From contig JAURFU010000001.1 in the NCBI GenBank assembly GCA_030834165.1, positions 1-64,000 of the forward strand: DNA of 64,000 nt, written 5' to 3'. The number at the start of each line of letters is the position of its first letter. Position 1 is the first letter of the stretch. The notes under the pieces were generated by a model that was not told the DNA's origin, did not search any database, and saw nothing but the letters and a program-made list of their open reading frames with translations. Below are positions 5,465-47,601 of this stretch, in pieces. The translations under genes were made by a program, and so were the position numbers. The DNA is from Verrucomicrobiota bacterium. Its GTDB lineage: Bacteria; Verrucomicrobiota; Verrucomicrobiia; Opitutales; UBA953.

Positions 5465-5539
<75 letters not shown>

Positions 5540-5643
5540 GGACAGCGGGATGGGAATGAGTGCGATTCGCGGGAAGGATTTCAAGAGCAAATGCACATTA
5601 ATCGGCGATGACGCCGGAAGGCGGAAAAAGGGACGGTTCGGAG

Positions 5644-5715
5644 TGGCCAGACAGGGACTCGAACCCTGAACCAATTGATTAAAAGTCAACTGCTCTACCA
5701 TTGAGCTATCTGGCC
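5644..5715 (-). tRNA. tRNA-Lys(TTT), CCA not encoded
   Basis: Minus strand GGCCAGATAGCTCAATGGTAGAGCAGTTGACTTTTAATCAATTGGTTCAGGGTTCGAGTCCCTGTCTGGCCA; anticodon loop CTTTTAA. Confidence 0.95.
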
Positions 5716-46545: not shown

Positions 46546-47601
46546 ATGGCCCGAGTCCAAGCCGTCACTTTCGACCTCGCAGGCACCCTGCTCTTCCCCC
46601 ACCCCTCGGTGGGTTCGGTCTACGCGGCCTGCGCCAAGGCGCACGGCGTCGAGACCGAGGCGGCCGTCCTGGACGCGGCTTTTCCGCTCGCGTTCAAAGG
46701 TGGCCCGAAGAACGCGAAACCGGAGGCGTTCTGGCGGGAGGTCGTCCAGCGCTGCTTCGGCCCGACCCTTCCCTCGTCCAGGAGCGAAGCCGTCTTCCGG
46801 GCCTGCTGGGAGGCCTTCGCGAAGCCTGACTCTTGGCGACTCGCCCCGGGCACCCTCCAGGCGATCTCGGCCATCCGTTTCCTCGGCGTACGCGTCGGCG
46901 TGCTCTCGAACGCGGACTCGCGGATGAGGCAGGTCCTCGAAGGGCATGGGCTCATGAAGCATCTCGATGGGGTCTTCCTGTCCGCCGAGACCGGCCATGC
47001 GAAACCAGACGCCCGTGCCTTCGGGCAGGCGGCGCGGGCGCTGGGCGGGGCGGTCTCCGGGCTCGTCCATTTCGGCGACAGCCCCGTCGAAGACGGCGAA
47101 GGCGCCCGTGACGCCGGCGCGACCGGCGTGGTCGTCGGCGGCGCGTACGCCCCGGAACGTTGCCTGCGTAACGACCGGATCTCCGAAGCCCCTTACGCGG
47201 TGCGGGCCCTGCTGACCGAAGGCAAACTCAAGGGCAAGTTCTCCCGTACGGTCCAGAACCTGATCGCCAACCTCCGCGGCCTGCCGGAGGATCGCGGGCG
47301 TTCGAGCGACCGTCCGATGAAGAGCATCGACGATGCGGTCCAGGACGCCTTCAAGAAACTGCGCCTGGACAAGCCCGTGCCGGAGACCGCCATCGTGGCC
47401 CATTGGCCGGAACTGTTGCCCCTCAAGCTCGCCAGACGCTCGGCGCCGTTGCGCGTCCTCGAAGGCGGCAAGCTCGTCGTGCAGTGCGAAAATTCGGTGG
47501 TGAAGTCGGAGATCCGCTTCCACGAACGCGCGATGCTGGCGAAGATCCGGCTCCTGCGTGGCTGCCAGGAGATCCGCGCCATCAGCTTCGTCAACGCCTG
47601 A
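46546..47601 (+). CDS. HDHD3/DREG-2-like HAD-family protein fused to a DUF721/DciA-like C-terminal domain
   Basis: N-term VTFDLAGTLLFPHPSVGSVYAACAKAHGVE...VGVLSNADSRM...AKPDARAF...VHFGDSPVEDGEGARDAGATGVVV; C-term SIDDAVQDAFKKLRLDKPVPETAIVAHWPELLPLKLARRSAPLRVLEGGKLVVQCENSVVKSEIRFHERAMLAKIRLLRGCQEIRAISFV. One uninterrupted frame. Confidence 0.75.
   Translation: MARVQAVTFDLAGTLLFPHPSVGSVYAACAKAHGVETEAAVLDAAFPLAFKGGPKNAKPEAFWREVVQRCFGPTLPSSRSEAVFRACWEAFAKPDSWRLAPGTLQAISAIRFLGVRVGVLSNADSRMRQVLEGHGLMKHLDGVFLSAETGHAKPDARAFGQAARALGGAVSGLVHFGDSPVEDGEGARDAGATGVVVGGAYAPERCLRNDRISEAPYAVRALLTEGKLKGKFSRTVQNLIANLRGLPEDRGRSSDRPMKSIDDAVQDAFKKLRLDKPVPETAIVAHWPELLPLKLARRSAPLRVLEGGKLVVQCENSVVKSEIRFHERAMLAKIRLLRGCQEIRAISFVNA

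Follow-up and report, generated by a model that had tools for sequence, protein, structure and literature searches.

A DciA-type helicase operator joined in one frame to an HDHD3-like HAD domain in a family of uncultured Verrucomicrobiota

The window, by which we mean the whole analysed stretch of 64,000 nucleotides, contains a gene whose product combines a HAD domain with a DciA (DUF721) domain. Coordinates of the gene and its parts are listed in Table 1. The frame opens with ATG, as it does in 29 relatives from the same genus, and all 30 proteins are identical in length. According to Pfam, residues 5-191 belong to PF00702 (HAD; E 2.9e-20, 73.9 bits versus curated cut-off of 26.4) and residues 261-348 to PF05258 (DciA; E 5.5e-14, 52.6 bits versus cut-off of 24), and the two matches do not overlap. 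An earlier sequence-only reading had described a single frame of 352 aa carrying both domains; the frame is indeed uninterrupted, but its length is 351 aa, the larger figure including the stop codon. Throughout the genus, gene order is conserved as nadB-panE-(small divergent gene)-fusion-154-aa gene-hisC, and the nadB-panE-fusion order is kept in a second genus. Elsewhere in the window, two tRNA-Lys genes with CTT and TTT anticodons lie about 100 bases apart on the minus strand (5465-5715).

Table 1. Position of the fusion gene and of its domains and motifs in the window
Feature	Position	Strand	Remarks
HAD-DciA fusion gene	46546..47601	+	351 aa + stop; open frame, two Pfam domains
HAD domain, HDHD3/DREG-2-like, residues 5-191, helical cap ~22-90	46558..47118	+	PF00702, TIGR02252 133 bits, 3k1z
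HAD motif I, D10-L-A-G-T14, with nucleophilic Asp and with Ala instead of the second Asp	46573..46587	+	
HAD motif II, S121-N122	46906..46911	+	N122 invariant, S121 nearly so
HAD motif III, K153	47002..47004	+	invariant
HAD motif IV, H175-F-G-D178...D183	47068..47094	+	H175, G177, D183 invariant; D178 at least 90%
Linker, residues 231-256, KFSRTVQNLIANLRGLPEDRGRSSDR	47236..47313	+	equals N-terminal extension of stand-alone Opitutales DciA
Internal ATG, proposed second start	47317..47319	+	unconserved: ATG in 10/30 genus members; Leu or Ile codons in the rest
DciA (DUF721, KH-like) domain, residues 261-348	47326..47589	+	PF05258; folds 7ykm, 8a3v; no C-terminal extension

An AlphaFold2 model of the fusion protein, built with 38 family sequences, displays a HAD fold with helical cap and a KH-like domain, both predicted with confidence (pLDDT of the HAD domain is mostly above 90). 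Confidence is low between them, at approximately residues 226-274, and most of the linker falls into this region, except for one short helix (residues 234-243). The proposed fusion of HAD with DUF721/DciA is thus borne out for both halves by Pfam as well as by predicted fold. HAD and dciA are separate genes elsewhere in the order, and the single frame might be suspected to be two genes wrongly merged through a frame error of assembly or annotation. The chance of this is practically negligible. The same unbroken frame is found in dozens of independent assemblies from five genera and the linker evolves under strong purifying selection; assembly artefact was therefore rejected. The internal ATG, suggested previously to give a stand-alone DciA-like product, does exist. 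Since no more than 10 of the 30 genus proteins compared have ATG at this position, such a product is not supported, and a free DciA translated from this start was discarded.

The HAD half contains all four catalytic motifs (D10, S121, K153, D178 and D183 in the window protein). When residue conservation was scored over 26 diverse fusions, D10, T14, N122, K153, H175, G177 and D183 turned out to be invariant; S121 and D178 are almost invariant. Both structure and sequence place this half closest to human HDHD3: PDB 3k1z is the nearest fold in Foldseek search with the AlphaFold2 model (E 1.6e-15) and also the best solved match by sequence. TIGR02252 (DREG-2) is by far the best NCBIfam match, although its score of 133.3 bits is below the cut-off of 155.2; unfused HADs encoded next to dciA score 129-151 bits. 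The earlier assignment to HDHD3/DREG-2-like proteins therefore holds. No substrate of HDHD3 was found in the literature searched, and none for the fused HAD either.

Motif I reads DLAGT, so that the second Asp of DxDxT is replaced by Ala, exactly as noticed before. The same Asp is missing in human HDHD3 (DVKDT) and in unfused dciA-adjacent HADs of related families (DVAGT, DAVGT, DATGT, DAGGT). Judging by these motifs, its absence characterizes the HAD subfamily, predates the fusion and does not signal decay. Selection was estimated by the simple Nei-Gojobori method, where many sequence pairs have dS near or above 1; genus medians of dN/dS indicate purifying selection on HAD (approximately 0.12) and on the DciA domain (approximately 0.09), and residues 231-256 have the lowest value in the protein (0.045). 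The possibility that the window HAD is degenerate, raised in the sequence-only reading, was abandoned, since D10, S121/N122, K153, D178 and D183 are retained, the Ala is common to HDHD3 and unfused HADs, and dN/dS is low.

The C-terminal segment was recognized as DUF721/DciA correctly. Its PF05258 match is above the cut-off, and a separate model of residues 226-351 has D. radiodurans DciA DUF721 (7ykm) as its nearest structure (Foldseek E 8.5e-05, probability 1.00), followed by chain C of V. cholerae DciA, 8a3v (E 1.5e-03). Sequence search with a profile of fused and stand-alone DciAs recovers 7ykm at 5e-12. The window protein stops at the last DUF721 strand and has no C-terminal DnaB-binding extension. 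In Caulobacter and Vibrio, this extension carries DnaB-binding helices (PMC9825169, PMC9912922); it is known from these two studied species and does not define the DciA family as a whole. In C. crescentus DciA, Arg106 and Leu119 are essential residues of DUF721.

In Opitutales outside the family, DciA is a separate protein of about 120 aa. Approximately 50 of these were examined: they begin, with variation, as M-[HK]FSRxxxNLIAxLRGLPxD (M-[HK]FSR..NLIANLRGLPED) and end 1-9, mostly 1-5, residues past DUF721. Their N-terminus corresponds to residues 231-256 of the fusion. A complete HAD has therefore been joined to a complete DciA, and the alignment of termini indicates that the joint lies just upstream of residue 231 (approximately residues 226-231), immediately before the linker. 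Stand-alone DciAs from Opitutales and some other Verrucomicrobiae (L031-L113) likewise end right after DUF721 without a C-terminal extension; those of Opitutales carry the conserved N-terminal FSRxxxNLIAxLRGLP helix instead.

Upstream neighbours of dciA were inspected in 47 non-family genomes from 17 families in which at least 900 bp upstream of the gene are visible. A homologous HAD gene is located directly upstream in 7 of these genomes (4 families). In three of them (G177, G167, G082) there is a 4-nt overlap between the HAD stop and a dciA start, exact gaps being inferred because alternative starts exist in some genomes. Phylogenetically, the fused HADs cluster with one another, separate from the adjacent unfused HADs (support 89/90 in the HAD tree). 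Since HAD adjoins dciA in related families and fused HADs group together, the tree and gene order suggest a probable single event in which pre-existing neighbour genes were joined at the base of the family. No HAD was detected in the DciA frame elsewhere in the class among the longest other frames examined (L074-L081, L046). Near-complete genomes of another family of this class, f31 (G210, G218, G225, G236, G240 and others), give no PF05258 match; they would have either a diverged DciA or a different helicase loader.

Within the family, PF05258 was found in 67 of 79 genomes. There is normally a single match per genome, and the frame containing it is about 300-450 aa long except where a contig ends. 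All 46 family genomes examined at the locus, representing all five genera, have HAD and DciA in one frame, a few of these loci being cut by the contig end or having a reduced HAD. The 12 genomes lacking a PF05258 match were searched again with a profile of the fusion, which revealed a full fusion in G006, a degenerate one in G001 and an end-of-contig piece in G063; in the other nine (63-86% complete) the profile gave only weak HAD matches. At the loci examined, the same architecture, not split genes, is found across the family. Those relatives that bear names are Opitutales bins from metagenomes (such as UBA953, UBA957, UBA7397, BS8 and BS10), and many of the names refer to lakes, and the family is one of uncultured Verrucomicrobiota, mostly from lakes. 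No plasmid record with a HAD-DciA fusion was found. Bin BS8 contains two distinct copies of the fusion (L117, L144; 87% and 62% identity to the window protein) and is probably mixed. Two contigs whose titles name Akkermansia muciniphila and Polynucleobacter meluiroseus (L128, L141) hold this Opitutales locus; these titles look wrong.

The genome from which the window comes is a 2.25-Mb draft, 81% complete, and its one PF05258 match is the fusion; at this level of completeness, the assembly could lack a second dciA. Near-complete relatives, e.g. G049 and G040 (99%), likewise have no PF05258 match other than the fusion. Both DnaB (TIGR00665, 413 bits) and DnaA (TIGR00362, 513 bits) are encoded in the draft. 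No candidate for DnaC/DnaI was detected in it: the IstB/DnaC-like profile matches only DnaA and a ClpX-like protein, and both matches were rejected as hidden loaders, the former on its TIGR00362 score and the latter by its sequence. The mutual exclusivity of DciA with DnaC/DnaI is seen in this 81%-complete draft. The three findings named beforehand as speaking against the fusion, i.e. no DUF721 match, split genes in close relatives and a second dciA, were not made. The DnaB of this genome (L163:841-2337) has Met (PDERMQVDLVQAA) in place of the conserved DH-helix Trp of E. coli and Vibrio in a sequence alignment judged by eye.

In one genus, g2, HAD is intact in three of seven species. The remaining four (L062, L064, L065, L167) have lost the nucleophilic Asp together with the cap; what remains of their HAD core is its C-terminal half, in frame with DciA and with a well conserved ILHVGxDLxxDxNAALAAGxRAxWL stretch. 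These four species group together (support 94/90), which suggests a single loss event. They can be viewed as an enzyme becoming a pseudoenzyme within a replication protein. Persistence of the fusion in this subclade after loss of the catalytic site argues that the loader can do without HAD catalysis in these species.

C. crescentus and V. cholerae DciAs load DnaB and bind ssDNA (PMC12547741, PMC9825169, PMC9912922). By analogy, the DciA half of the fusion (residues ~231-351), comprising the short leucine-rich helix and KH-like DUF721, would bind ssDNA and the DnaB ring and assist DnaB onto DNA. Binding to DnaB is assumed here, since the C-terminal extension of the Caulobacter and Vibrio proteins is absent from the window protein and from the Opitutales DciAs examined. 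We weakly infer that the N-terminal leucine-containing helix might replace this element. The HAD half would be a metal-dependent phospho-Asp enzyme that folds separately, is flexibly tethered and acts on a small-molecule phosphate. The reading we favour, and hold to be reasonably probable, is that the fusion represents the DciA loader of this lineage permanently joined to an HDHD3/DREG-2-type HAD that acts largely independently of loading. The fusion would then have been fixed mainly through gene adjacency and translational coupling.

The main rival to independent modules is regulation of helicase loading by HAD. HAD would sense or hydrolyse a phospho-metabolite, or else hold a long-lived phospho-Asp, the second Asp of motif I being missing, and so alter engagement of DnaB and ssDNA by the DciA helix and KH domain, coupling loading to metabolism. 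This is possible, though we consider it rather unlikely. Strong conservation of HAD and of the fusion across the family could also mean joint function: the fusion is kept over five genera, with catalytic residues intact in most, and HAD abuts the most constrained segment of the protein. Genes that are first neighbours and then fuse are a classical sign of functional linkage; in three related genomes, neighbouring HAD and dciA overlap by 4 nt. On the other hand, four of seven g2 species retain the fusion without catalytic site and cap, and the modules are separated by a flexible, low-confidence linker. Moreover, HAD is not adjacent to dciA in most related genomes, and the loader therefore works without it. 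An extended version, improbable in our opinion, has HAD as a built-in metabolite or phospho-Asp switch on DciA and the DciAs of this phylum gripping DnaB by their N-terminal helix; if true, this helix would lie exactly between HAD switch and KH domain in the family.

Degenerate g2 proteins, which have lost nucleophile and cap but retain the C-terminal part of the HAD core, also raise the question whether the fold serves as a structural or oligomerisation platform, with enzyme activity incidental. Other genera conserve the full catalytic set and the cap, which is beyond the needs of a scaffold, and N-terminal parts of the degenerate HADs resemble ongoing decay; we regard such a role as distinctly improbable. 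DUF721 might even be a nucleic-acid-binding helper of the HAD enzyme, loading being performed by something unrecognised. Lack of the DnaB-binding C-terminal extension and the Met in the DH helix of DnaB would fit this, but the same short C-terminus occurs in stand-alone Opitutales DciAs, and single copy, strong constraint and lack of a DnaC/DnaI candidate make it very hard to believe. Independently acting modules remain our preferred explanation. That the only recognisable DciA of the family sits on an enzyme bears on the questions how DciA assists DnaB loading and whether this step is regulated. Close relatives have the intact form, a catalytically dead one or unfused genes, and so offer a natural experiment on a possible tie between helicase loading and metabolism.

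HAD and DciA are known families; their combination is absent from the open-access literature searched, where no fusion of an enzyme with DciA was found, and Brezellec et al. 2016 (PMC5109545) use neither "fused" nor "domain architecture" in their main text. Compared with HDHD3/DREG-2 proteins (TIGR02252, 3k1z), the window HAD shares helical cap, motif I without second Asp, sequence and predicted fold, and differs by its fusion to DciA and its TIGR02252 score below cut-off. Unfused HAD-dciA pairs of other Opitutales families (L094-L097, L102, L108, L085) have a homologous HAD in the same order and on the same strand, but as two genes, with spacing from the 4-nt overlap to a gap of about 90 nt. 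With DciA helicase operators of C. crescentus, V. cholerae, M. tuberculosis (Rv0004) and D. radiodurans (7ykm), the fusion has in common KH-like DUF721, single copy and a genome with DnaB and DnaA and without a DnaC/DnaI candidate. In contrast to Caulobacter and Vibrio DciAs with their C-terminal extension, it has the N-terminal leucine-containing helix common to other Opitutales DciAs, and it differs from all these operators by the complete HAD enzyme at its N-terminus.
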